From assembly GCF_026210795.1 (NCBI RefSeq), contig NC_089446.1, forward strand, positions 434,001 through 498,000: DNA of 64,000 nucleotides, in the 5' to 3' direction. Made by a program: the position numbers and the translations under genes. The notes beneath the pieces were generated by a model. It did no database searches and had not been told where the DNA came from. It saw only the letters and a list, made by a program, of their open reading frames with translations. This document shows, piece by piece, positions 43,184-59,580 of this stretch (the first letter of the stretch is position 1; the number at the start of each line of letters is the position of its first letter). The stretch is from Rhizophagus irregularis. Lineage: Eukaryota > Glomeromycota > Glomeromycetes > Glomerales > Glomeraceae.

Positions 43184-44539
43184 ATGGTCCAGGCGATATG
43201 TTCTTCAATATTAATCTGATTTTCTTCTGAATAATCAGAGAATGCATCTCCATAAATTTGTCTTTCCCACGAATTATTATATTCTTCTGTATCAATCGAA
43301 TAGTTATCTTCATTACACTGACAAATAATTTCGTTACAACAACTATATGGTGATGGTGAACGGGCTGGAGGAGGTTGACAAACTTTACAAATACAATCTT
43401 CTGGATGAGGTCCATTGGGGTTGTTAAAATCATATCGAATTCCTGAAATAATATTAATAGGAGAGTTATTTTCAGATCGTTTTTCAATGTAGCTTTGCAT
43501 ATCATATATTAGATTATCACAATGATTTAACAAATCGATAGCTCTTTGAGCAGGTCTATCAGTATAATCATCTTCTGAATCTGCATCATACTCTTCATGT
43601 ACTGGAGTAGAGCTTTCATTTACATTAGTTTGTCTTTCTTTTTCAATAGAAATCATGAAACAACTAAGAGTTTGGTTATCTTCTTCAAACATTCTGGATA
43701 ATGCATCTGCATTTGCATTTGCTTTTCCTGCTCGATGCTTAATATTAAAGTTGTACTGTTGAAGGTCCATGACCCATCTTGCACGGCGACCTTTTGGGAT
43801 TTTGGATGTCTTTAACCATTTTAGAGCAGAATGGTCAGTAACAATTGTGAAAGGTTTTAATCCTAAGTAGTGTTGGAAATGTTTAATAGCCCATACTATC
43901 GCAAGACATTCCTGGTCGGTTATAGGGTAATTGCATTCAGCCTTATTCAAAGATCTGCTGGCATAAGCGACTACATGTTCTTTTCCATTCTCTCTTATTT
44001 GAGATAACACAGCACCAAGTCCAGTTCCAGATGCGTCTGTATGGATAATAAAGGGTTGTTCAAAGTCAGGGTATGTTAAAATCGGAGATTTAACTAATCT
44101 TTCCTTTAAATAATCAAATGCAGTTTGCTGTTTCTCAGTCCAATGAAAAGGGGTTTCCTTCTTTAAAAGTAATAACATTGGTTTGGCTATTTTTGAGAAA
44201 TCTTTGATGAACTTTCGATAATAGGAGAATAAGCCTAATGCTGAGCGAAGTTGTGTTAGGTTTGTTGGGACTGGAAAAGTTTTAATTTTCTCAATTTTTT
44301 CTGGATCAGGACGGATACCTTCTCGTCCTACTACATGTCCTAGGAAATGAATATTTCCAAGGCAAAAATAACATTTCTTTAGTTTAATCTTCAAATTTGC
44401 TCATCTAAGAGTTTCAAATACTTGTCTAAGATGGTCCAAGTGTTGCTCCAAGGTTCCTTTTGAGTAGATGATTACATCATCTAAATATACTGCTACAAAT
44501 TTCCCTAGATACTCCTGGAGTATTCTATTCATTAATCGT
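43120..44539 (-). pseudogene. Gypsy A pol: end of reverse transcriptase and RNase H, with one TGA
   Basis: This resumes immediately after the Gypsy B insertion with RLMNRIL and the RT active site VYLDDVIIYS. TGA at 44401-44403 interrupts the frame between TLR and ANLKIKLKKC. Next come FLGHVVGREGIRPDPEKI and the RT connection, then RNase H with HTDASGTGLGAVLSQ, TDQECLAIVWAI and VTDHSALKWL, ending in NANADALSRM. After that the acidic and Cys-rich spacer begins. The TGA most simply came from CGA by one C-to-T change. Its next codon, GCA, is not a known leaky context. Confidence 0.85.
44536..44539. repeat. 4-bp target duplication of Gypsy B
   Basis: TCGT precedes the 5' LTR (44536-44539) and follows the 3' LTR (55146-55149). 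Keeping one copy joins Gypsy A pol as PGTFQR then LMNRILQEY without a frame change. Confidence 0.9.
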
Positions 44540-45776
44540 TGTAAACGGCCGAATATCAAGCACGAAAAGATGATAAAATTCAACCGCCAAATGTAATTAT
44601 CAAGTATTAAGAACAAACAAATTAATCGTGGATTGGTGTGGATGGATAAATAATTAGCCGAAAAGGATAAACATTTAAGAAGAGTAATGATCTACATGAT
44701 GTAATATTTATTGGATGATTGACAAAGAACCAATAGGATAAATAGAGTCGATCATTTGCGGCTTAGCGATCTTTAACAATGAGAACGACAAGAAAGAATA
44801 ATTATAAGCCACAAAAGGTAGATTATGAGCGAAACACATAAAGTGGATTAAAAGAATATATAAAATAATGTCGGAAAGATTGGAGAACATAAAATAATAT
44901 AGAAGATAATATGAAAAGATGGCATAAAGATGGAATATAAAAGATAACATATTAAAAAGAACATATATAAAAGATAACACAGCCACAAAAGATGAATTAT
45001 ATCTTTACGACATAATATTTGAAAGATTATTTTAAAGAAAAGATAGCACAGCCATAAAAGATGGGTTATAAATTATTTCTTTACGATGTAATATTTGAAT
45101 AATAGAAAAGATAATATATAAAATAATATATAGGATAGCATATTAAAAGATAGCGTATCTAAAATATAGATAGTATATTAGAAAGATAGTTCAAAGATAA
45201 TATGTAAAGAACATAAAAGATAGTATATAGATAGAATAGAAAGTAGCATAAAAATTGTATATATAGAGAACGGAATTCAAAGTAATTCCACAGTTCGCAT
45301 CCACAGAACTCAATAAAATATAAGTTTTATTTTTTAATTATTAATGAAGTTTAATATTAATTAAAGGTAATAGGTTCGCCCTAAACTTTAATTAATGTTT
45401 GATTAATTAATTTTAATTAATGAAAATTTAAGATGAATTAAATATATACCTTTGGAAGATAATAATTCGTAGCGAGAGCTATCGCAGTTTGAAATCGAAA
45501 GTGGATATAAATTGAGGAAAATCCAGAGAAGTTAATTTTATTTTATACCGTTCAACGCTTTATATTACTAACGCTATTTATTTTGTGAACCAAGAATGTT
45601 GTTGTATATTGTTCGCTGATGTTGTTGTTCGTTAATTATGTTTTGATCACGTGTTTGTTCGTTTGATTGCTCGTTCGTTCGTTTGTTTGTTCGCTCATTC
45701 GTTCGTTCGACCATGAGAATGCCCGTTCGATGTGGCAACCTTGTAAATTGATGACAGGGGGAATTGGGGGATCTCA
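44540..45776 (+). mobile_element. Gypsy B 5' LTR (1,237 bp)
   Basis: Starts TGTAAACGG and ends GGATCTCA. By eye it differs from the 3' LTR (53909-55145) at a single base (CAGTTCGC versus CAATTCGC, about 45293) and has exactly the same length. It holds AT-rich repeats of AAAAGATAAC/GGCATAAAGATGG type and a TTCG/TTTG microsatellite at about 45655-45710. ORFs read from it are not genes. A possible polyadenylation signal, AATAAA, lies at about 45311. Confidence 0.92.
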
Positions 45777-45778
45777 TA

Positions 45779-45795
45779 TGGTGCATGCTCCGAGA
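45779..45795 (+). other. primer-binding-site candidate of Gypsy B
   Basis: TGGTGCATGCTCCGAGA starts two bases after the 5' LTR. It begins with TGG, complementary to a tRNA CCA end, and the following bases would pair with an acceptor stem and part of a T stem. I could not match it to a particular tRNA. Gypsy A has the same two-base spacing before its own candidate. Confidence 0.5.
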
Positions 45796-47400
45796 AAGGA
45801 AATGATCATCATCACATGATTATTGTTATAATGAATATGAAAATTTAATTTCGTTAGTAAGTCACTGATATTATTAATCAATATTTTATTTTAGAATTTA
45901 TTTTTAGATTTCAGGTTTTGACGAGTTCAAAAGGAACCAATAAATCAATGAGGATTTAATGAGTTGAAAACTTGAAAAGGCGAAAGATTGGAGTTTGAAG
46001 TTGTGCAAGTAATCACTTAATCGATAGAAAGCACAAGAATGTTTCTTTCGGGAATAAAGTACCTGAGAAATTTCATAAGGAGATGTGGAAGTTAAAGATA
46101 AATTTTGGAATAAAGATTAATAATGGGAGAACACCAATGTATTATCCGGGGTTCATCTGTGTGGTATGGGTTACCTCTGAGTTTGGATTTTGGATAAATG
46201 CTCGAGATTGGAAAATTTTTATTCTTCGACATTAAAGATTATAACGTATGGGTTACGTCAAATCTGGATACCCAGCTCAATAACGCGCGAATTGCTTTGG
46301 GGACGGGGAATGAAAATTGTAAAGACACCTACTATCAAGAAACATTGAATGGATAAAATGGGACAAACCTGAAAACTGTCGTGCTTTTATTTCAATGTGA
46401 GGTATCTCCAGCGGGTAAAAGATAGAGATAAGCTCAGTATAGGTCCACCAATTTAAGAAAGTTGGTTTAGATGAGTTTTATGGATAGCTGATGACTTTTG
46501 AAACTGGATTTCGGAAGATTAGATTCACCCGTTAAGAGACGAGTCGGCCAACGAAGGAGGAAAAGACTGATATGTTGTATTGTTACAGGTCCTAGGCTAC
46601 ATTTCAGATGAGGGTTCCTGGTGTAGTGTCCTAGTTCACGCTTTCATTACAATGTTCTGTTAAAAGAAGAAAAAATAGAAGGATATTTACACATTAACGA
46701 GCCGTATAATGAACATTACGTGCAGTATTTAATAATAGAGTAAAATCCGAAAAGAAGGACATTTATTTAAAAGAAGAACATTTATTTGAAAAAGAATATT
46801 TATTTGAAAAAGAACATTTATTTGAAAAGAAAGACATTTATCTGAAAAGAACGACATTTTGTGTGTTATAGATTAATTTATATAATATAGAATATATAGT
46901 AAGAAGGATTTATGCGGACGATAAGAAAGATTGGAAATTCGCAAACCTTAAAACTCCAGAATTTTCATAAAGTTTGTGATATGTGAAATTATGGATCTTG
47001 GTGACAAAAAGATGTGACAAAAAGATGTGACAAAAAGAGGTGATAAGTGAAACTATGAATCACGGTGACGAAAAGATGTGACATGTGAAATTAGGGAAAT
47101 CGGTGATAAAAGATAAATTTTATGGCGCAGTAAAAAACCTCCGCAGCCTGAGGAGATCGTGGACTTAGAAAATTTTTTGAAATTTTAAGGCGCAGCAAAA
47201 ATTAATAGTAAAATATGACGAAGTAAATATATAGAACCGAAAGATGGAATCTAAGATTGAAAGAAGTAATCTATTTAAAGATGAAAGAATGTTTAGAAGA
47301 TCAAAAATAGAAATGATAAGAGTGAAATATATATATATAGAGAGAGGAATCCGATTGAGATTCTGGATGGATATTCATAGCAATTTAACTAAAGCATATA
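45796..47400 (+). other. Gypsy B leader region with short tandem repeats
   Basis: No long ORF except one of 63 codons (47244-47435) that overlaps the gag start and looks like chance. 46751-46860 carries about five copies of an 18-20-bp unit (AAAAGAACATTTATTTGA). 47001-47080 carries four or five copies of a GTGACAAAAAGAT unit. Such purine-rich repeats may belong to the packaging or translation leader. A cluster at 47115-47180 (GGCGCAG) is duplicated. Confidence 0.5.
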
Positions 47401-49668
47401 ATGGAATGGTACCATCAATGGGAAAGCGAATATAGAACACATAAAGAGGAACACGAATTAGGAACAGAAGAATTGGACGAATGTTTAAATTGTGAATTAT
47501 GTTATCCAATAGTAGATGAACCAATAGTATTCAAGAAATTTTGGGACGCATTATTTAAATTTGAAGATGCAATAATAATATATAATGACGTAACAATTAA
47601 GGGAGTATTAGATTTATTAAGTATGAACAATTCAGAAAGAGAGGATACAATACATAAAGGAAAATGCAGAGATATAATGGATAGAATAACAGAATCAATA
47701 AGATATAGAATACAACCAAAGATGAAAGAAAAAGGATTACGAACAATTATATTAGTAATTGTAAGAGATTGTATTGAAAGAAATCTGGAGAATGAAGTAT
47801 TTGATAGATTAATTGGAAATCCTGAATTAATAGAACACAAATATATTTTGGAAGATTGGGATGTTGAAAGAAGGTTTGAAAAATTTTGGCAATGGTATAG
47901 AATCACATCAAAAGAAATTGGACCATTACGAGTAAAGACGGGAGCAATAAAGACATTTAGGGAATTACTATATGAAGAAGAAGGAATAGTTATGAATGAA
48001 GAGAAAGTAAAGGAACTAATGTCCGATATAGAATATGAGAACATACATATAGAAAATGTTCACGAATATCACAAGAATATGGTACAGAAGATAATAAGAA
48101 TATTTATAGATACTAGGGGATTTACAAAAGAACCAGAAGATTCAGAAAGTGAGGATAGTCCAGCAAGTTACGAATTGGAAAATGATTCCGAGGAAGAATT
48201 AGAGATAATAATAGGAGATAAATCATGGAAATTTAGTGAATTAAGAAGAAGGTCAAATGTTATGGATGAAGATCAACTGAGGTACATTTGGAAGATAGGA
48301 ATAAAGTTGATGATAGAAATGGATATATTGGTAACGAGAATATTTATGGACAAAATTCAAGAGATAGAGGAATTGGATGAAAGAGAAAAAGAATTGAGGA
48401 TAAAAGAATGGTTAGAAAAAGAAACAATAATGTGTGAAAAATGTGGTAATAGAAGGTTCGAAATGGACGAAGCGGATAGCGAGTGCGGGGAATGTGTTAA
48501 AGAAGCGCAGAAGAATGAACAAGATGAGCTAATAGAATTAAGAAACAACTTAGAAAAATTGGGATATGAAATAGATGTGTCAGAAATTCAAAGAATGAAG
48601 AGTTTTGGGGTAAATAATCGAATAATGGTAACTAAAGAATTTGTGGAAGAATATATGGAAGTGATAGATTTGGAAGATAAAGAATTAAGAAAAGAAATCC
48701 ATAAGTGGTTAAACAAGAATACAACTTGGTGCGAAAGATGTGAAATAAGATGGATGAATGATATGTTTAGATTAGGATGGATGGATGATATGTCTAGAGT
48801 AAGAGGAATGGTATGCAAAGATTGTGAAGAAGAAAATATCGATGAAATTGATGATCGGGTAAAAAGATTACAGAAGATTTTTGAAGATATTGGAACAATA
48901 ATAACTGAAGAAGAATTGTTGAGATTAACTAGTATGGGATATACAGATGGAGAAATTTTAGATAAAGAATTCATTGAAATCTTTCAAGAAAATAAAAATG
49001 AGTCGGAAAAAGAATTGAAGAAAAAGCTAGATAAGTTGTTGAAAGAACAAACAGGAACAATAGATAGTGAAGAAAGTGGCGAAAGAAGCGATAATGAAGA
49101 ATCAGAAGAAGATAATACAGATGATTCAGAAAAGATTGGAGAAATACTAAGTCCGGATGAAAGATGGGATGAAGATATTGAAAATTTTAACGAAGAAGAG
49201 TTTGAAGATGAAGTTGAAAATGTTATAAATAGAGGGGATAGCGACTTAAGTCAAAACTCAGATACGAATAGTTCATTAAATATTAAAAATTCTGACAACG
49301 AAAGTGAATTATCTGATTACAATTTACAAGATTTATTTCAAGAGAATATATTGAAGATGGCAACTGAGGGTCAAATAAAAAGAGTGATAGAAAATGCTTT
49401 AGGTTTTCCAGCAAATACTTTGAACGCAGCAGTAGGAGCAGGAGGAAGTTTGATAGAAAGGATCGAAAATGCAGGAAATGAAGCAGGAGGAACAATTAGT
49501 ATACCACTCTTTTATGGAAGAGAAGATGAAGATGTTACTGATTGGGTTAGACAATTCGAGGTAGCATTTGCAGCAGTCGGAAAAGCAGCGGGGGCTAATG
49601 GCGTAAGACAAGCGGTATACGCAGCAGCACATTTAAGAGGGCAGCAGCACAATGGTATAATGAAATGA
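47401..49668 (+). CDS. Gypsy B pre-gag and gag N-terminal ORF, 755 aa
   Basis: The N-terminus has ECLNCELCYP at residues 27-36, the position where Gypsy A gag has YCIQCYP. Next comes a helical module with FKKFWDALFKF, repeated as FEKFWQWYRITSKEIGPL, which also occurs once in Gypsy A (FEKFWLWISIQ). Residues 330-560 hold two tandem modules of about 99 residues, each with CxxC ... CxxC (C345/C348 and C444/C447 begin them) and a helical EYMEVIDLEDKELRKEIHKWL-like part, suggesting zinc ribbons. An acidic stretch follows, then a gag capsid-like start (IPLFYGREDEDVTDW, about 697). The frame ends at TGA 49666-49668, after which gag continues in the -1 frame. The long pre-gag extension is unusual; its function is unknown. 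Confidence 0.8.
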   Translation: MEWYHQWESEYRTHKEEHELGTEELDECLNCELCYPIVDEPIVFKKFWDALFKFEDAIIIYNDVTIKGVLDLLSMNNSEREDTIHKGKCRDIMDRITESIRYRIQPKMKEKGLRTIILVIVRDCIERNLENEVFDRLIGNPELIEHKYILEDWDVERRFEKFWQWYRITSKEIGPLRVKTGAIKTFRELLYEEEGIVMNEEKVKELMSDIEYENIHIENVHEYHKNMVQKIIRIFIDTRGFTKEPEDSESEDSPASYELENDSEEELEIIIGDKSWKFSELRRRSNVMDEDQLRYIWKIGIKLMIEMDILVTRIFMDKIQEIEELDEREKELRIKEWLEKETIMCEKCGNRRFEMDEADSECGECVKEAQKNEQDELIELRNNLEKLGYEIDVSEIQRMKSFGVNNRIMVTKEFVEEYMEVIDLEDKELRKEIHKWLNKNTTWCERCEIRWMNDMFRLGWMDDMSRVRGMVCKDCEEENIDEIDDRVKRLQKIFEDIGTIITEEELLRLTSMGYTDGEILDKEFIEIFQENKNESEKELKKKLDKLLKEQTGTIDSEESGERSDNEESEEDNTDDSEKIGEILSPDERWDEDIENFNEEEFEDEVENVINRGDSDLSQNSDTNSSLNIKNSDNESELSDYNLQDLFQENILKMATEGQIKRVIENALGFPANTLNAAVGAGGSLIERIENAGNEAGGTISIPLFYGREDEDVTDWVRQFEVAFAAVGKAAGANGVRQAVYAAAHLRGQQHNGIMK

Positions 49669-50993
49669 AAGAAGTAAATGCGGGAAACTTAGTGAATTGG
49701 GCAGATGCAGATAATGATAATGATTTAAAGCATAGAATAAAAAGAAGATTTACCAGAGAGGATGTTAGAAGAAAGAAAATGCTAGAATTAAGAAAAACCC
49801 GACAAGAAACAAGTGAAAGTGTTGAAGAATATACAAGAAGATTTAGACAAATATTAAGAATAGCAACTAGAGGACATGCATTAGCAGATGAATATCAAGT
49901 AGATTTTTACATCGAAGGATTAGAACCAACAATAGGATATCAAGTTAGAAGACAGAATCCAGCGAACTTAAATGGGGCGATAGAAATAGCGGTAAGAGAA
50001 GAAGGTGCAAAAGACGAATTTTTAAGAAAAGCAATAGGAACACCAATTAGTACGAAAATAGATATCGGAAAAGATGACAATAGACAAAATATGTTCGCAA
50101 AACCATTGAACGAAAATTATGAGGACGAATTAGCTGAAATGTTTAAAGAGAAGGCGAAAATTAGTAAATTAGAAAGAATGGTAGCAAATATGGAGAGAAG
50201 ATTAAACAACGATAATAGGGATAGGTATCAACCAAATATGGGAAGGAGATTAAATAATGGTAATAGGAATAGTTATCAATCAAACCAGATTAGGGTACCA
50301 ACATGTTACGGATGTAATAGAGTGGGGCATTATAAGAATAATTGTCCTGAAGGAAGGAAAGCAAGATTAAATATGATAGACGAATATGATGATCAAGAAG
50401 AATACTATTATGATGAATATGGATACAAGGAACCACAATACGGTGAAATGTATTATACACAAGGCTATTACGATGATTATGAAGATAGAGAATTAAATTA
50501 TCATAGTGAATTATACGCAAAAGATGACGCAGTAAAAGGAAGAAGACAATCAAGAAGAACGAGTCCAATAGTGGGATATAAAAACAATGATGAAGGAAGA
50601 AATTTACAAGAAGAATTAAGAGAAGCAGGAAATAGAATGGATGATAGAGAAATACCAACTGGTACAACAGCACCAAATTATATACCTGAACGAACTGAAC
50701 AAAATGGGGATAGACCAATGGGACCAAAAGGAATGAGGTGGAGTAATAAAAGGCAAGCTTATTACGACCCAACAGAAGGACTAAGAAAATGGAGAGAAGC
50801 AGGAGGACCAACAAAGCCCAGAGAATATGGACCAAGACTAACTGACGGAATACCACCTTATGATATTGTGGAAGATGTGAAAAATTGTAGAGCGAATATA
50901 ACATATGGACAATTAGTAAACGGGAATCCTAAGTACCATAAACAATTAAGAGAAGGAACATATAGACCAAGAAGTATAAACGAGAAAAATTGA
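49665..50993 (+). CDS. Gypsy B gag C-terminal part with CCHC zinc knuckle
   Basis: The -1 frame relative to the upstream ORF. The good join is HLRG then AAAQWYNEM, so one G is missing from a GGG run near 49640, or a -1 slip occurs there. It carries the gag helices (VEEYTRRFRQILRIATRG, YQVDFYIEGLEPTIGYQV), a short coiled coil (KLERMVANMERRL) and the zinc knuckle CYGCNRVGHYKNNC (about 50305). A Tyr/acidic tail and a region rich in RPMGPKGMRW come next. It ends at TGA 50991-50993 followed by CTA, with the same frame open into protease. In a working element this protein would be the nucleocapsid. Confidence 0.85.
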   Translation: MKEVNAGNLVNWADADNDNDLKHRIKRRFTREDVRRKKMLELRKTRQETSESVEEYTRRFRQILRIATRGHALADEYQVDFYIEGLEPTIGYQVRRQNPANLNGAIEIAVREEGAKDEFLRKAIGTPISTKIDIGKDDNRQNMFAKPLNENYEDELAEMFKEKAKISKLERMVANMERRLNNDNRDRYQPNMGRRLNNGNRNSYQSNQIRVPTCYGCNRVGHYKNNCPEGRKARLNMIDEYDDQEEYYYDEYGYKEPQYGEMYYTQGYYDDYEDRELNYHSELYAKDDAVKGRRQSRRTSPIVGYKNNDEGRNLQEELREAGNRMDDREIPTGTTAPNYIPERTEQNGDRPMGPKGMRWSNKRQAYYDPTEGLRKWREAGGPTKPREYGPRLTDGIPPYDIVEDVKNCRANITYGQLVNGNPKYHKQLREGTYRPRSINEKN

Positions 50994-50996
50994 CTA
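50991..50996 (+). promoter_or_regulatory. in-frame UGA-CUA between gag and protease (candidate read-through site)
   Basis: The gag frame stops at TGA (50991-50993). The next codon is CTA and the same frame then continues through HSVGTMKDEEKR into the protease. UGA followed by CUA is an established leaky stop context in several RNA viruses and some cellular genes. A stop at exactly the gag/pro boundary, with no loss of frame, is what gag-pro read-through would require. It is a single example, so a nonsense mutation is not excluded. Confidence 0.5.
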
Positions 50997-51002
50997 CACT
51001 CG

Positions 51003-51506
51003 GTGGGAACTATGAAAGATGAAGAGAAAAGAACTACAGCGATGAGAACGGAATTAGAAGTTGAAGATCAATTAGTGAGTGTAATAATAGATACCGGAGC
51101 AGCAGTAAGCGTGATAACAGATAAATTAAGAAGAAGATTGAATATACCTATATTTGGAAAAAGTAAATTTAGATGTACAATAGCAAATGGGCAAAAGATA
51201 GCAGCATTAGGGAAGGCAAATATAACTTTAAGATACAAAGATGAATTAGAGATATTAAGAGACGTTGAAGTAATCGATTCAGAAGAGGAGGATCTAATTT
51301 TGGGAAATGATATATGGAAGCTGTATAATGCAAAAATAAATTTCGAAGATCATACCTTAAGAATAGAAGAACGGGGAGAAATAATAACGATCCCAGTAGG
51401 ATATGAAAGAGAAGCAATATATGAAAGCGAAGAGAGCGAGGACGATGAAGAATATGAAAGTAACGATGAGGGAGAGGTATTCAAAATGCACCAGAATTTT
51501 AAATAG
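51003..51506 (+). CDS. Gypsy B aspartic protease
   Basis: A retropepsin-like domain: SVIIDTGAAVSVITDKL holds the catalytic DTGA (about 51090), with the flap region CTIANGQKIAALGKANI and the second half LILGNDIWKLYNAKI (ILG motif). The ATG at 51012 is probably not a true start; the domain should be made as a gag-pro fusion by read-through of the upstream UGA. An acidic tail (EESEDDEEYESNDEGE) follows. The frame stops at TAG 51504-51506. The RT frame is offset by -1, and the sequence around the change (TTTTAAA) is not a canonical slippery heptamer in this phase. Confidence 0.85.
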   Translation: MGTMKDEEKRTTAMRTELEVEDQLVSVIIDTGAAVSVITDKLRRRLNIPIFGKSKFRCTIANGQKIAALGKANITLRYKDELEILRDVEVIDSEEEDLILGNDIWKLYNAKINFEDHTLRIEERGEIITIPVGYEREAIYESEESEDDEEYESNDEGEVFKMHQNFK

Positions 51507-51541
51507 AGAGTCTTGGCTCTGAAGAGAGAGAGACGGAAAAG

Positions 51542-53623
51542 ATGCTCGAACCAAGTGAAAAATTTATGCAAAAATTAAGTATAGGGAAAGTAGAAGAACC
51601 AATTTGGGAAAATATGGTAAAATTATTATTAGAATACCAAGATATTTTGGAATATGACAAAGAAATAGAAGGAAGAACAAAAGCGGCGCAACATGAGATA
51701 AAAATAAAAGATGGGGTAGAACCAATAAAGCAAAGAAGATACAAAGAAACAGATGAGAAGGCAAAATTTATAAGCGAAGAAGTAGATAAATTATTAAGAC
51801 AAGGAAGGATAAGAAAATCAAAAAGTCCATGGAGTTCACCGGTTACATTAGCAGGAAAGAAAACGGGAAAATATAGATTCTGTATTGATTACAGAAAGTT
51901 AAACAAGATAACTATAATGGATAGTTTTCCTTTACCAAGGATGGATGAATTGTTAGACAAATATAGAAAAGCAAAATGGTTTTCAAGTATAGATTTAGCG
52001 GCGGGATTTAATCAAGTAGAAATGAAAGAAGAAGACAAAGAAAAAACAGCATTTGTATGTTCAAAGGGATTATTCGAATATAATGTAATGCCGTTCGGTT
52101 TAACGAACGCACCAGCAACATTTCAGAGATTAATGGATGAAATATTAGAAGAATACATAAACGATTTTGTGGTAGTATATATCGATGATATTATGATATA
52201 TTCAGAAAATTTAAAAGACCATATGGAACATGTGGAAAAAGTATTAAAGAAGCTACAGGAGAATAATTTGATAATAAAATTAAAGAAATGTAGATTTTTG
52301 GAAAGAAATATAGAATTTTTAGGACATATAGTAGGAAATGATGGATTAAGGCCAGACGATAAAAAGATAGAAAAGATAAAAGAAATGAAGGCACCAACAA
52401 CAGTGAAAGAAGTTAGATCATTTTTAGGACTTTGCTCATATTACAGAAAATTTGTGAAGAATTTTTCAAAGATAGCAAGACCAATAAGTGATTTGAGAAA
52501 GAAGGGAATACCTTTTATTTGGGGAAGAGAACAACAAGAAGCGTTTGAAAAATTGAAAGAAAAGTTAATACAATATCCAATATTGCGACATCCAGATTGG
52601 AAGAAAGAATTTTTATTAATAACAGATGCATCAGGAAAAGGATTAGGCGCAGTATTGAGTCAAAAAGATGAAAAAGGAAAAGAAGTAGTAATAGCATATG
52701 CAAGTAGAAGTTTATTACCAGCGGAAGAAAATTATCCGATAACAGAATTGGAATGTTTAGGAATAGTTTGGGGAATTCAACATTTTCATAAATATTTAAT
52801 CGATAGAAAATTTAAAGTAATAACAGATCACAGTGCATTAAAGGGATTAATGAATGCAAAGATACCAAAAGGAAAAAGAGCAAGATGGGTGATGGAATTA
52901 CAGCAATATAATTTCGAAGTAATACATAGGTCGGGAAAAGAAAATACGAACGCCGACGCATTAAGTAGGTTATTAAAGATAGTAGAGGACCAACCAGAAA
53001 TAGTAATAATTGATGGAGTAGACGGATTAGGGAAAACAAGTATAGTACAAAATTTAATTAAAGAATGGGAAGAACAAGGATTAAAAGTAAGATTCAATAC
53101 TTATAAAAGAAGAAGAAAAGATAAAGATGAATTTCACGAATCAAAGATGGATACAGAATGGAAATTCAGAAAAGAAGTAGTGGAACAAATAAATAGAAGA
53201 ATGGTAGAATACGATGAAGATACAGATATAATAATTTTGGACAAATCACCATATTGTGAATATTATTACCAAAAGACGAAAAGTTTTGACAGAGGATTAA
53301 TTACTCCACATGGAAATCATGAGATGGAGAAAGAAATATTCAGACTGAAAGAAACAATAGATAAATCAATAGTGATATTTTTAGAAAAAGATGGCAATGT
53401 ATGTTGGGAAAATTACATTGGAAGAGAAACAAAGAAAACGGAAAAATCATCATATCCAACATTAAAGAAGGATGAATATTTGGACATGGTTAAAATGTTT
53501 GAAGAAAATCAGAGTGTGTACAAAGATACCAAAAGATACAGTCGAGTAAAAGTTAAAAATGACAATAGTAGTTGGAGAAAAGTATTTAAAGAGGTGGAGA
53601 AATGGAGAAGAACACAGAACTAA
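51542..53623 (+). CDS. Gypsy B reverse transcriptase, RNase H and thymidylate/deoxynucleoside-kinase-like domain
   Basis: One uninterrupted 693-codon frame. Residues about 45-330 are RT: FCIDYRKLNKITIMD, MPFGLTNAPATFQRLM and active site YIDD at 213-216. About 355-477 are RNase H: TDASGKGLGAVLSQ (D362), ELECLGIVW, TDHSAL and the closing NADALSRL (about 470). Then, where Ty3/Gypsy pol has integrase, residues about 485-690 form a P-loop nucleotide kinase: a beta strand EIVIIDG, Walker A GVDGLGKT at 492-499, TYKRRRKD, FRKEVVEQI, a second strand IIILDKSPYCEYYYQ (DK/RS-type motif at 567-569), a third strand SIVIFLEKDG, a lid-like basic segment GRETKKTEK and a C-terminal helix. This is the thymidylate kinase/dNK architecture; DK replaces the usual DR. 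No DDE core or HHCC is present. It might phosphorylate dTMP or deoxynucleosides for reverse transcription (inference). Confidence 0.88.
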   Translation: MLEPSEKFMQKLSIGKVEEPIWENMVKLLLEYQDILEYDKEIEGRTKAAQHEIKIKDGVEPIKQRRYKETDEKAKFISEEVDKLLRQGRIRKSKSPWSSPVTLAGKKTGKYRFCIDYRKLNKITIMDSFPLPRMDELLDKYRKAKWFSSIDLAAGFNQVEMKEEDKEKTAFVCSKGLFEYNVMPFGLTNAPATFQRLMDEILEEYINDFVVVYIDDIMIYSENLKDHMEHVEKVLKKLQENNLIIKLKKCRFLERNIEFLGHIVGNDGLRPDDKKIEKIKEMKAPTTVKEVRSFLGLCSYYRKFVKNFSKIARPISDLRKKGIPFIWGREQQEAFEKLKEKLIQYPILRHPDWKKEFLLITDASGKGLGAVLSQKDEKGKEVVIAYASRSLLPAEENYPITELECLGIVWGIQHFHKYLIDRKFKVITDHSALKGLMNAKIPKGKRARWVMELQQYNFEVIHRSGKENTNADALSRLLKIVEDQPEIVIIDGVDGLGKTSIVQNLIKEWEEQGLKVRFNTYKRRRKDKDEFHESKMDTEWKFRKEVVEQINRRMVEYDEDTDIIILDKSPYCEYYYQKTKSFDRGLITPHGNHEMEKEIFRLKETIDKSIVIFLEKDGNVCWENYIGRETKKTEKSSYPTLKKDEYLDMVKMFEENQSVYKDTKRYSRVKVKNDNSSWRKVFKEVEKWRRTQN

Positions 53624-53832
53624 AATTACAGAACAAATGGAAAGGACCATATTTAATTCACGAAGAATTTGGAAATGGGGCATATAAACTCAAAGAATTG
53701 GATGGAAGAATACTAAAGACACCACAAAATGGAGAATGGTTAAAGAAATTTTATGATCGAGGGGGATTTACACCAAAAATAGTAATTAAAGGAAAAGAGG
53801 TATTCGATAAGACCCGAGTTCGATTCAATTAG
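53602..53832 (+). CDS. integrase C-terminal tail left in Gypsy B
   Basis: This overlaps the end of the pol ORF by 22 bases in the -1 frame. From residue 12 it reads KWKGPYLIHEEFGNGAYKL, ELDGRILKTPQNGEWLKKFY and TPKIVI. The integrase C-terminus of Gypsy A has the same pattern (KWKGPYYIHQVGEKGAYKL ... DGKVLRTPVNG ... EPIIVV). It is therefore the last 60 residues of a Ty3/Gypsy integrase with nothing of its catalytic part before it. It may be a separate small protein from ATG 53602, or the tail of pol after a -1 shift. This segment helps define where the kinase domain was swapped in. Confidence 0.85.
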   Translation: MEKNTELKLQNKWKGPYLIHEEFGNGAYKLKELDGRILKTPQNGEWLKKFYDRGGFTPKIVIKGKEVFDKTRVRFN

Positions 53833-53894
53833 AATTATTACGAACGAGACCCGAGTTCGATTCTTTTAAAGTTATTTGTGAGGTCACAAATAGC

Positions 53895-53905
53895 GAAGAG
53901 GGGGA
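53895..53905 (+). other. polypurine tract of Gypsy B
   Basis: GAAGAGGGGGA lies three bases before the 3' LTR (TGTAAACG at 53909), the expected position for priming plus-strand synthesis. Confidence 0.75.
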
Positions 53906-53908
53906 TAA

Positions 53909-55145
53909 TGTAAACGGCCGAATATCAAGCACGAAAAGATGATAAAATTCAACCGCCAAATGTAATTATCAAGTATTAAGAACAAACAAATTAATCGTGG
54001 ATTGGTGTGGATGGATAAATAATTAGCCGAAAAGGATAAACATTTAAGAAGAGTAATGATCTACATGATGTAATATTTATTGGATGATTGACAAAGAACC
54101 AATAGGATAAATAGAGTCGATCATTTGCGGCTTAGCGATCTTTAACAATGAGAACGACAAGAAAGAATAATTATAAGCCACAAAAGGTAGATTATGAGCG
54201 AAACACATAAAGTGGATTAAAAGAATATATAAAATAATGTCGGAAAGATTGGAGAACATAAAATAATATAGAAGATAATATGAAAAGATGGCATAAAGAT
54301 GGAATATAAAAGATAACATATTAAAAAGAACATATATAAAAGATAACACAGCCACAAAAGATGAATTATATCTTTACGACATAATATTTGAAAGATTATT
54401 TTAAAGAAAAGATAGCACAGCCATAAAAGATGGGTTATAAATTATTTCTTTACGATGTAATATTTGAATAATAGAAAAGATAATATATAAAATAATATAT
54501 AGGATAGCATATTAAAAGATAGCGTATCTAAAATATAGATAGTATATTAGAAAGATAGTTCAAAGATAATATGTAAAGAACATAAAAGATAGTATATAGA
54601 TAGAATAGAAAGTAGCATAAAAATTGTATATATAGAGAACGGAATTCAAAGTAATTCCACAATTCGCATCCACAGAACTCAATAAAATATAAGTTTTATT
54701 TTTTAATTATTAATGAAGTTTAATATTAATTAAAGGTAATAGGTTCGCCCTAAACTTTAATTAATGTTTGATTAATTAATTTTAATTAATGAAAATTTAA
54801 GATGAATTAAATATATACCTTTGGAAGATAATAATTCGTAGCGAGAGCTATCGCAGTTTGAAATCGAAAGTGGATATAAATTGAGGAAAATCCAGAGAAG
54901 TTAATTTTATTTTATACCGTTCAACGCTTTATATTACTAACGCTATTTATTTTGTGAACCAAGAATGTTGTTGTATATTGTTCGCTGATGTTGTTGTTCG
55001 TTAATTATGTTTTGATCACGTGTTTGTTCGTTTGATTGCTCGTTCGTTCGTTTGTTTGTTCGCTCATTCGTTCGTTCGACCATGAGAATGCCCGTTCGAT
55101 GTGGCAACCTTGTAAATTGATGACAGGGGGAATTGGGGGATCTCA
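53909..55145 (+). mobile_element. Gypsy B 3' LTR (1,237 bp)
   Basis: Direct copy of 44540-45776, starting TGTAAACGG and ending TCTCA, followed by the target duplication TCGT. One substitution between the copies was found (about 54662). The open frames inside are the same chance frames as in the 5' LTR. Confidence 0.92.
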
Positions 55146-58100
55146 TCGTTGAAAAGTTCCAGGCGCATAAGCTAAACCAAAGGGCATTACTAAAAATTCA
55201 TATAATCCAAAGGGAGTAATGAAGGCAGTTTTCTCCACATCTGCTGGATCCATAGCTACTTGCCAATAACCACTGGCTAAATCTAATGTGGTAAACCATG
55301 TTGCATTACTAAAAGATTCGAGCATATCATCAATTCGAGGCAATGGATAGGCGTCTGCTTTGGTAACAGCATTCAATTTGCGATAATCTATGCATAAACG
55401 TTTTTCTCCTCCTTTTTTATCAACAATTACTACAGGTGAAGCCCAAGGGCTAGCTGATTTTCTTATAAGTCCTTGGCTTTCCATTCTTGTGATTTCACCT
55501 TGTAAAAATTCTCTATATTTAGGATTACATCGATAGGGTGGTTGAGAAATAGGCGTAGCATCTTTTGTAATAATTTTGTGCTTAATTACATTTGTTTTCC
55601 CAATTTCTGTTTGGCTTTTAGCACAAATATCTGCATAGTCACTCAAGAGTTGTTGAAATTGGTTTTGTTGGTGGTAGTCTAGTGGTCCTAAATGTAAGTC
55701 TGGATTGACTTTTTCTTCACTATATACTTCTGCTTGAGCTAAATAAATGGCAGGATTTGATTCTTCCAATTCTTCATCTTCATTATTTTGGTGGGCAGGA
55801 GATATTTCATTTTCCCAAGGGTTAAATTCAAGGGATTCTTCTGTAGAATAACCAGAAAAATCAGACATATAGATTTGAGCTTCTTCTAACTCTTCAGACT
55901 CATATTCCTCTTCGTCATCATACTCAAATGATTGCTTCATTTTAATGGGTTTTGGAAGAGTAAAAATCACAGGGACTGTTGTGGATCGTCCATTGTATCT
56001 AATGGTTAGTGTTTTCTTGTCCCAGTCAAGAGCAGCATTTACCTTTCTCATCCAGTTATTTCCTAGAATAAAAACACTATCGCTTGATTCTATGATTTGA
56101 ACATTGGTTTTAATAATTAAATTTCTGACTTTTAGGGGTAAATTTTGGATTTCTCCCAGTGATCTAACTCTAGTTCCATTGGCAGTTTTAATTACATATT
56201 CTGAAGGTCCATCGATAGTTAATTTCAAAATTTTCATCATGGCAGTTGTCATAATACTAACTGCAGCTCCACTATCAATTACTGCAATAACTGGTTGTTG
56301 ATTAATATGAAATTCACATTTGGCAGCGGTAGTAGGAGTTTCTTCTTCTGAGTTGGAGTCTCCATAGTAACTTTCTCCAATATAATTATTGTTATCAATC
56401 TTTTCACGCTTTCTCCTCATACTTTGAATTAATCCTTTCCTATAAACAGGAAGTTGAGCTGTTGCTTGACCGATAGATAGACCACAAGGAAGGTCACTAA
56501 TGTATTTAGCTATGTCAAATTCATTGACGTTTTCAATAGGTGCAGGGACCATTTTGGTTCTTACTTTTCTTTTTGTTGAAGATTCTGCTGTAGCATCCAT
56601 ATCCATTGGTGTAGAAGGAGTTACTGGAGGAATAGGTTGGGTACGTAATTGGTCTTCCTTTCGAGATTCTGAAAATCTTGTTCTTTTTCCTCTAGGAGAG
56701 GATATCTCATATGGAACAGATCTAGAACGAGTTGTGACATATGCTTCATATTCGTCTTCTTCCTCCCATTCTTCCTCATATTCATCCTCATATTCATCAT
56801 AATAAATTTCTGCTTCATCATCTGCATAGTTAATTGGTGTAACTGGTGCTCTTTGGCGAGGGCGATTATTATTATTATTACCATTAATATTTCCATTATT
56901 GGTATTTCTTCCCATTTGGCAGTTTCTGGAAATATGTCCTATATTTCCACATCTAAAACAAGTGATATTTGGATTGAAGGAATTCTGAGTAGGGGCTTGA
57001 CCATTTTGACGATTTTGATTGTTATTATTATTAGGTCTAGGTCTGGTATTTCGAGGAGTGCTTTGTTGAACCATTAAAACTGATGAAAGATTTGCATAAT
57101 TAAGAGCGAGTTGTTGCATTTGTTTTGTTAATGCTTCCATTTCATCTACTTGTGGAGTTGGTTTAACAGTAGTAGTAGTAGTAGTTGGAATAGGTTCTGT
57201 AGTACTAGTAGTTACAGGTGTTGTAGTTAAAAGAGTAGTATTTACACCTAATTCTACTAACTTGGCTCGGGTAATAGTTGTCTCCAAGGTATCAGCATTC
57301 CCAATTACTACCTGTCCAACTAAGAAGGACTTGAGACCATTAATATAGTAGTTAATTTGGTATCTTGCAGCTAAAGCTTCTCCTTGAGTAGCTTTATTTA
57401 ACAACTTCTTAAAACGTCGGGAGTAGTTTTCTACTGATTCATTGTCTCCTTGTTTAATATTTTGCAGTTCTCTGGTCCACTGATTCCTTCGAGCAGCAGT
57501 TGCAAAGTAGTTTATAAGTCGGGTGTCAAAGTTATCTGCATTGTTATCTATATGCCATTGATTGATATTTCCTCTATCCTCTTCATACCAATCTCGGGCA
57601 GCTTCCTTAAGAAATCCAGCGGCTAAAGCAATTTTTCGATTATCTGGCCATCCATTAGCATCAAAGGCAGCTTCAAAGAGTCGACACCATTCGTATGGAT
57701 CCTCATCATCACGTCCATAGAAAAAAGGAACATCCACAACTTTAGATGTAGTACGATTTTGGTTGGCAGTTGTAAGAGCATTAATGGCGGTAAGATTATT
57801 TTGTAAAGCAGTAGTAATAGCATTTGTATTGTTATTCAAAGTATTTTCCAAAAGGTTTCCAACATTTCTGGGGTTAGTATTATCAGCTGGGTCAGTTCCC
57901 CAGACCAACTTCATAAGATCTCTCATTTGACCTGCATCCATATTGGCATTGTTATTTACTGGTGTATTATGAAAAATTTGGTATGCGTTGGTTACTTGAG
58001 TATTAGTTGGTAAGCTCTTGAATCCGTTTGTTAATTCAAATAATTTATGTAAATAAAAGGATAATTCTAATAAAGGGGTATTTATTTGTCGAAACTTTAT

Positions 58101-58397: not shown

Positions 58398-58631
58398 TCA
58401 ATTTCAAAATTCAAATTGTTGCAAGTACGTCTGCTAATATCTCAAGTACGTCTGAGAAAGTAAATTTTGTTTGCAAGTGCGTCTGCAAGTATTCTCAAGT
58501 TCGTCTGAGAAAAGAAATTACGTCTGCAAGTTCGTCTGAGAAAAGAAATTACGTCTGCAAGTACGTCTGCAAGTATTCTCAAGTTCGTCTGAGAAAAGAA
58601 ATCAATTGTTAATTCACAGTATAGCCTTTTA
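58398..58631 (-). repeat. Gypsy A 5' leader with tandem repeats
   Basis: 58430-58605 is made of short units related to AAGTACGTCTGC, AAGTTCGTCTGAGAAAAGAAA and AAGTATTCTC, each present two to four times. On the transcribed (minus) strand they lie between the primer-binding site and the gag ATG, so they form the 5' untranslated leader. Confidence 0.7.
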
Positions 58632-58650: not shown

Positions 58651-59221
58651 TGTTAACCGATTCGGTACGTTGAATAGATTAACTATGATTTGCAGTCAGG
58701 GAGATTAAGTACGTTTAACTATGACTGAAATCCAATCAAACAAGACACGCTTAAAAATAGGGAGTTCGTTTATAGTGTAAAAGGTTATACTTTATTATAG
58801 AACTTTATGATTACAAGAATAAGAATTACGGAACTAAAGGTAAACTAATTCGAACTGAAGGAACTTTTAACGAAGGAAGATACCAACGTTATTTATATAA
58901 AAGTTACTACATATAAAGATATAATAGATATAATAAATATAATAAATATAACTAATATAATAAATATAACTAATATAATAAATATAACTAATATAATAAA
59001 TATAACTAATATAATAAATATAATAAATAAATTAAATATAATAAATAAAATAATTATATCGATTATATTAAATATAATTAATATAATAAATATAATAAAA
59101 ATAATAGGCTAAATAGGCTGTGGCTAAGTCGGCTTGGCACAGTTGGGCACAGTAGATCCTAATTTTCCACATGATCTTCTGGCATAGTAAATTATAACTC
59201 TACACGTGACTAGGGGTAACA
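58651..59221 (-). mobile_element. Gypsy A 5' LTR (571 bp)
   Basis: Same ends as 39008-39596. It has four rather than five copies of an 18-bp AT-rich unit (about 58948-59020) and three base differences. Followed by target duplication ACGT at 59222-59225. Confidence 0.9.
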
Positions 59222-59580
59222 ACGTGATCCCTTTCTTGGAAAGATTTGAAGAAGAAAATGGTGATTATTTGTTCCAACAAGATAATGCACCGATTCATAC
59301 AAGTGCAAGAACAAGAGAGTTCTGTGAAGAAATGGGAATAAATTTGCTATCATGGCCGGGGCAGAGCCCAGACCTCAATCCCATTGAGCATCTTTGGGAT
59401 GAGCTTGAGAGGCGTATAAGAGCAAAGCAAAATCATCCTAAAAATTTAGGAGAATTGGAGGAACTTCTTCAAGAATGTTGGTCAGAAATTTCATGTGAGG
59501 TCTACCAAAAGCTTGTGGAGAGCATGAACCGTAGAATTGAGGCAGTTATAAAAGCTCGTGGATATCCCACAAGATATTGA
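59222..59580 (+). pseudogene. Tc1-family transposase, C-terminal part
   Basis: Continues the transposase interrupted at 39007. It holds the second catalytic Asp in FQQDNAPIHTS and the Glu in LNPIEHLWDELE, 34 residues apart, that is, DD34E as in Tc1 elements. The tail ESMNRRIEAVIKARGYPTRY ends at TGA 59578-59580. Together with 38325-39007 and one ACGT removed, the frame is complete, giving about 350 residues, a normal Tc1 size. Confidence 0.9.

Follow-up and report, generated by a model that had tools for sequence, protein, structure and literature searches.

Has a Ty3/Gypsy retrotransposon given up its integrase for a nucleotide kinase, and what would such an enzyme do inside a retroelement? 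The question is raised by a long terminal repeat (LTR) element in a stretch of 64,000 nucleotides of Rhizophagus irregularis DNA (contig NC_089446.1, positions 434,001 to 498,000 of the forward strand; hereafter the window). A first-pass annotation of this DNA had described a single open frame running from reverse transcriptase (RT) through RNase H into a P-loop domain, and had proposed that a kinase was swapped for the integrase as a trait of the element. The single frame is borne out, whereas the swap is a trait of the window copy and a few others, not of the family. Our reading, to which we give a probability of roughly 0.6, is that a Ty3/Gypsy lineage of Glomeromycotina carries in pol a kinase kept by selection between RNase H and integrase, that this enzyme most likely phosphorylates thymidine monophosphate (dTMP) or another deoxynucleoside monophosphate (dNMP) toward dTTP, and that the window copy is a young one whose integrase was deleted.

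The pol region of the window copy contains the following features.

51542..53623, + strand: pol open reading frame (ORF) with RT, RNase H and kinase (ORF list, Pfam scan).
51857..52333, + strand: RT domain (PF00078, E 5.7e-45, residues 106-264).
52595..52909, + strand: RNase H domain (PF17917, E 2.7e-37, residues 352-456).
52967..53620, + strand: nucleotide kinase domain of the thymidylate kinase (TMPK)/deoxynucleoside kinase (dNK) fold, given as the stretch modelled, with its core at about 52997-53611 (profiles, model, fold matches).
53015..53038, + strand: Walker A motif GVDGLGKT, pol residues 492-499, including Asp19 and Lys23 of the domain.
53240..53272, + strand: DKSPYCEYYYQ motif, paired by hhalign with a motif of phage thymidylate kinases.
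53622..53626, + strand: joint of a 1078-nt deletion that took out most of the integrase ORF (comparison with locus L002).
53602..53829, + strand: residual C-terminal piece of integrase, KWKGPYLIH..., an ORF in another frame than pol.

Pfam, PHROG and hhalign results, together with the predicted structure and its fold matches, make the domain a TMPK/dNK superfamily kinase whose closest sequence affinity is to TMPKs; the earlier call of a nucleotide kinase thus holds. After RT and RNase H, the top Pfam match of the window domain is PF02223 (Thymidylate_kin; E 2e-4). Among the 13 kinase stretches of alignment A1, PF02223 is matched by 12 at E <= 0.01 (best 3.3e-8), and the generic AAA_14 is matched equally often, in 12/13 at the same threshold. 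The phage family phrog_761, 'thymidylate kinase', matches residues 12-213 of the 218-residue window domain at E 2.8e-13 and is found in 13/13 members (best 4.9e-17), with near whole-domain coverage in the three members displayed. Six phage proteins that were picked up by weak tblastn matches also hit phrog_761. When a profile of five of these six proteins is compared with the element kinases using hhalign, the probability is 97.8% (E 9.4e-13) over 100 columns, which are the first half of the domain; the P-loops are paired, and ILDKSPYCEYYYQ is paired with ILDRxxxSTxxYQ of phage thymidylate kinases. The AlphaFold model of the domain has a mean predicted local distance difference test score (pLDDT) of 92.7 and a predicted template modelling score (pTM) of 0.89, and the predicted structure has the TMPK fold. 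Its top fold matches are deoxyadenosine kinase, thymidylate kinases, AbmG and dCK, with tied scores, and a viral structure set also gives TMPK/dNK proteins. A sequence search of the PDB returned designed PPR chains, FtsY and other P-loop proteins, with matches mainly around the P-loop end of the domain.

Three observations weigh against naming the domain a TMPK outright. PF02223, which the first-pass annotation had singled out for checking, gives the strongest match apart from RT and RNase H; at 20.7-21.5 bits, however, the window domain stays under the curated cut-off of 27 bits; it is therefore termed TMPK-like and not a family member, while one relative (P0027) scores 30.2 bits, over the cut-off. 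TMPKs carry a DR motif where a core strand ends. The element kinases have DK instead (aligned site D-K-S, with D and K both in 52/52 ungapped rows), so the active site would not be a textbook one. Finally, TMK, dCK, dGK and AbmG are equal in fold score, and the substrate is not singled out by the fold. An active kinase with another substrate, such as a deoxynucleoside, a ribonucleoside (AbmG-like) or a nucleic-acid 5' end, and with a role in salvage or against host defence, would fit the DK motif, the deoxyadenosine kinase as best Foldseek match, the cytidine-bound kinase in the first VIA row and the matches to PF01712 (dNK) in 3/13 members at E <= 0.01 (best 7.6e-4). We consider this unlikely, since thymidylate kinase is ranked first by sequence profiles for most members and the P-loop Asp, D19, is present in 55/55 aligned sequences. 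The P-loop of TMPKs carries this Asp (GxDGxGK[ST]), where it contacts the 3'-OH of dTMP, and dNKs are not known to have an Asp at that site.

The kinase is a feature of many copies. A search of the same genome gave 151 kinase matches, counting best candidates only, and the subfamily counts that follow are of rows displayed among these candidates, grouped by identity. Subfamily A, to which the window copy belongs, has at least 56 near-full rows (93-100% identity), 53/56 of them without an internal stop; subfamilies B, C and D have at least 22 (83-87%), 15 (59-65%) and 34 (53-57%) rows, respectively, and the rest of the displayed matches are fragments, broken or intermediate rows. Outside subfamily A, the anatomy was read at six loci (L031 and L032 of C, L035 and L036 of B, L033 and L034 of D). 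In the copies read of all four subfamilies, the kinase stands between RNase H and integrase. In A to C the RT-RNase H protein ends in the kinase domain, and the integrase lies in a later ORF: both C loci run RT-RNase H-linker-kinase, stop and then integrase ORF, and both B loci have a C-like layout plus an extra small ORF in between. In D, the integrase ORF instead begins with the kinase domain, in the order RT-RNase H ORF, small ORF and kinase-integrase fusion ORF, the last of which is broken close to its end in L034. Pfam domains H2C2 and rve were found in both loci scanned (L032 and L034). Most B matches have an apparent internal stop, which in 4/4 B loci read (L035, L036, L057 and L058) is simply where the kinase ORF normally terminates. 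The short linker from RNase H to kinase that had been described for the window copy is correct for subfamily A. A stretch of about 55 amino acids before the kinase is conserved in B and C (about 1836-1997 in L032) and absent from A. In subfamily C it is a small, confidently predicted fold (residues 32-85 of model m906293d82cae, block pLDDT 80-97), and this pre-kinase domain matches nothing in Pfam at E <= 0.01.

The arrangement is also found outside R. irregularis. Protein matches with a named organism are all from Glomeromycotina (R. irregularis, R. clarus, R. diaphanus and G. cerebriforme), and many rows are nameless. P0001, which is 98% identical across the kinase region, comes from R. irregularis DAOM 181602. 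In the predicted protein P0029 of R. clarus, RNase H, kinase and integrase follow one another unbroken; the same order is unbroken in P0034, whose gene model is without the DKSPYCEY stretch. The ends of the window copy are as follows.

44540..45776, + strand: 5' LTR, TG...CA, direct repeat of 53909-55145.
53909..55145, + strand: 3' LTR, direct repeat of 44540-45776.
44536..44539, + strand: target-site duplication TCGT, left copy (flank-joining test).
55146..55149, + strand: target-site duplication TCGT, right copy (flank-joining test).

Each LTR is 1237 nt long with TG...CA ends, and the pair has 1 mismatch in 1237. The element is nested at window positions 44536-55149 in the RT gene (minus strand) of another element, 'Gypsy A'. 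When the flanks are joined minus one TCGT, the 'Gypsy A' RT frame is continuous across the site, with one stop further on, so the insertion is clean and recent and not an assembly join. The window copy thus has the TG...CA LTRs and the short target-site duplication of Ty3/Gypsy elements, and the lineage has their order of protease, RT, RNase H and integrase; the window copy itself is without the H2C2 and DDE part. Neither a misassembly nor the accidental joining of a host kinase gene to one element copy has anything that we found in its favour, and both are refuted by the copy number and the presence in other species: there are numerous copies at separate places, the window copy has clean LTRs and target duplication, other species likewise have the domain beside RNase H or integrase, and the host's TMPK-like exons (L038) are quite different by eye. 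We regard both as negligible.

Did the kinase replace the integrase? Integrase motifs were tallied in 44 copies of the 56 near-full rows of subfamily A. Of the 30 best loci, 25 retain one or more integrase core motifs downstream of the kinase and 21 have all four motifs sought; the five without any are L001 (the window copy), L013, L016, L025 and L028. Among 14 lower-ranked copies, out of the 26 remaining, 13 have motifs and L069 is without. In total, 38/44 copies have integrase motifs downstream of the kinase. Motifs do not mean an intact gene: the integrase stretch is in frame in 15/28 equal-length loci, and 12 of these 15 are stop-free. Replacement of integrase across the family holds for the window copy and five more of the 44, and is ruled out as a family trait by the 38 others and by the integrase in all six B, C and D loci read; we give it almost no weight. 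In L013, L016, L025, L028 and L069, which have lost the integrase motifs, the kinase frame is still open.

The window copy lost its integrase through a later deletion. Compared with L002, its closest copy by kinase, 1078 nt are gone at 53622-53626. The integrase tail KWKGPY...GAYKL that had been noted earlier is present, but in the ORF at 53602-53829 and not in the pol frame. When five deleted copies (L001, L013, L016, L025 and L028) are set against L002, four distinct breakpoints emerge, each with an overlap of 11-14 nt in BLAST, which is a further point against replacement as a family trait. Such overlaps would fit deletions that join two short direct repeats, perhaps through RT template switching. 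The joint of L013 is at the same repeat as that of the window copy. Because the nearest relatives of the two are not the same and their kinases are 3.5% different, two events through one short repeat are likelier than one shared deletion. To insert, the window copy needed an integrase, which was either self-encoded prior to the deletion or supplied by another copy. Other copies do have an integrase there, the finding that the first-pass annotation had named as counting against its reading; this tells against the swap and not against the kinase, which has 151 or more matches in the genome and occurs in other Glomeromycotina.

The kinase is under strong purifying selection. In subfamily A, the equal-length kinases are stop-free in 28/28 loci and have a median ratio of nonsynonymous to synonymous substitution rates (dN/dS) of 0.066; in the same loci, the median is 0.039 for RT-RNase H (22/28 in frame) and 0.075 for integrase (15/28 in frame). 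Kinase ratios are 0.093 within C (12 loci), 0.152 within D (10 loci) and 0.093 between A and B. Some of the figures pull the other way or call for caution. The first 30 loci are the top-ranking protein matches, a choice that lowers the proportion of nonsynonymous differences (pN), and for this reason the 14 lower-ranked copies were added. They are stop-free in 12/14, and the ratio of pN to the synonymous proportion (pN/pS) is 0.103 among the 14 and 0.089 across all 44, with 39, 22 and 102 variable sites at codon positions 1, 2 and 3. Within B the ratio is 0.413, on 4 usable pairs only, and the ratios of A/B versus C versus D (0.13-0.18) are rough, with dS near saturation. Constraint on the kinase in subfamily A is thus about equal to that on the integrase. 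Dead enzymes are known to serve as scaffolds. A non-catalytic domain, retained as a folded spacer or as a dimerisation or nucleic-acid-binding module of pol, would suit the fusion to RT-RNase H in A to C and to integrase in D, as well as the near-invariant basic KRRR stretch. It would have no need of a nucleotide site, and Asp19 and Lys23 of the P-loop as well as Arg153 are each conserved in 55/55 aligned sequences; we hold this explanation to be improbable.

Where does the kinase come from? In a kinase tree of 67 rows, the A and B rows and three rows of unnamed source form one clade (100/98), the D rows form their own clade (100/100) and three Glomus cerebriforme rows are placed among the C rows with modest support. 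Because of this placement, the subfamilies may be older than the split from G. cerebriforme, or elements may have been transferred between hosts. Subfamily B is a chimera with C-like RT-RNase H and integrase and an A-like kinase. In L036, the locus compared, the RT-RNase H is 76% identical to C and 68% to A, the integrase is 81% to C and 58% to A, and the kinase is 85% to A and 61% to C; L035 is alike by eye. Thus, the kinase seems to move as a cassette between element lineages. The closest sequence family found is that of the phrog_761 phage thymidylate kinases (Cronobacter phage CR5, Erwinia phage phB78), in which the P-loop and the D(R/K)xxx(S/C)xxxYQ motif align with the element kinases. 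Unlike the latter, they are stand-alone proteins outside retroelements. A tblastn search of phages had no match at E 0.1; at E 10 it gave 77 records, and among the 25 listed the E values are 0.6 or worse, the identities are 21-33% and many are annotated as thymidylate kinase. A phage-type origin is thus suggested by profile similarity. Pattern-plus-tblastn scans, which are blind to distant relatives, found 112 stretches fitting the pattern in IMG/VR viral contigs and 80 in a prokaryote genome collection, with 0 confirmed in either. Host TMPK-like genes were rejected as a near source, as the L038 exons and L037 share just the general TMPK pattern by eye. A plasmid search gave three records that match RT/RNase H and not the kinase: NZ_CP087956.1 (a Wolbachia plasmid) and NZ_CP065944.1 and NZ_CP065945.1 (Bacillus licheniformis plasmids), 27-46% identical over RT/RNase H. 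These matches are possibly eukaryotic contamination.

The remaining coding features of the window copy lie upstream of pol.

47401..49668, + strand: ORF of 755 amino acids upstream of gag (ORF list, Pfam scan).
49665..50993, + strand: gag ORF with zinc knuckle (PF03732 E 9.1e-9, PF19259 E 1.7e-6, PF00098 E 0.003).
50991..50996, + strand: gag stop in the context TGA CTA, in frame with protease (L033 and L034 have the identical TGACTA where gag stops).
51003..51506, + strand: aspartic protease ORF (PF13975 E 6.5e-9).

The 755-aa ORF has a long acidic N-terminal part with nothing above the Pfam cut-off; its C-terminal end looks like the start of gag, which goes on in the overlapping ORF from 49665. 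No dUTPase family was matched at E <= 1 in a Pfam scan of four ORFs in 47401-53620. An in-frame TGA-CTA ends gag, with the protease ORF next in frame, in both subfamily A (window position 50991) and subfamily D (L033 718 and L034 722, on the reading strand), and UGA-CUA is a context for stop read-through. Pol would perhaps be reached from gag by read-through of this stop, which is identical in A and D, and further on by re-initiation or frameshift. RT, RNase H and kinase would then be made as a single protein. Inside the particle, the kinase may phosphorylate dTMP or another dNMP, as the biochemistry of TMPKs suggests, and a host nucleoside-diphosphate kinase would complete dTTP near the reverse transcriptase. 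Reverse transcription needs a supply of deoxynucleoside triphosphates (dNTPs), and cells that seldom copy their DNA have low levels of them. The enzyme would matter in arbuscular mycorrhizal (AM) fungi, whose spores and hyphae have many nuclei that possibly seldom divide and where dNTPs may be scarce. The fuller proposal is that a working dNMP kinase in the polymerase protein derives from a phage- or bacterial-type TMPK acquired long ago, is kept in at least two AM genera, supplies dNTP precursors where reverse transcription takes place and moves as a cassette between element subfamilies by recombination; we rate it a little short of even odds.

Other features lie near the element. An ORF at window positions 59206-59580 reads DNAPIHTS...SPDLNPIEHLWDELERRI, and we read it as the probable C-terminal half of a Tc1/mariner-type DDE transposase. 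Next to 'Gypsy A' there are an AT-rich array with 9-nt steps at 58874-59134 and a direct repeat with 84-nt spacing at 58443-58602.

Among known systems, the nearest case is the dUTPase of retroelements. A dUTPase hydrolyses dUTP and is of another enzyme class than a P-loop kinase. In the available part of one report, a dUTPase domain is described in retroviruses and in the LTR retrotransposons of rotifers and basidiomycetes; it too serves nucleotide metabolism from within pol, although in the rotifer elements it lies between protease and RT (PMC5408684). Orchid Ty3/Gypsy elements have likewise captured an enzyme, an AlkB-type m6A demethylase domain active in vitro, which differs in standing in ORF2, in modifying RNA and in its host and function, according to the portion of that paper at hand (PMC9289625). 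Fungal Ty3/Gypsy elements share protease, RT, RNase H, integrase and LTRs with the kinase-bearing element; as far as the text available extends, a survey of them names the chromodomain as extra domain and attributes 'complex' elements with inserted domains to nested insertions, and the word kinase is absent from its text (PMC3248453). Two papers on R. irregularis transposable elements make no mention of a kinase-bearing element in their accessible sections (PMC8647823, PMC11075540). Literature searches, partly judged by title or abstract, found no retroelement with a thymidylate or deoxynucleoside kinase. The kinase is an accessory domain in an LTR element, and its enzyme class was met in no described retroelement in the literature searched.

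Pieces of the element are labelled 'thymidylate kinase' in sources, and such annotation may mislead. The supply of dNTPs matters for reverse transcription, and whereas a dUTPase is known in some retroviruses and LTR elements (PMC5408684, as far as available), the literature searches turned up no retroelement with a kinase of dNTP synthesis. The family supplies many natural variants, including intact frames, integrase-less copies and two fusions of the kinase, to RT-RNase H and to integrase, and with them a testable prediction.
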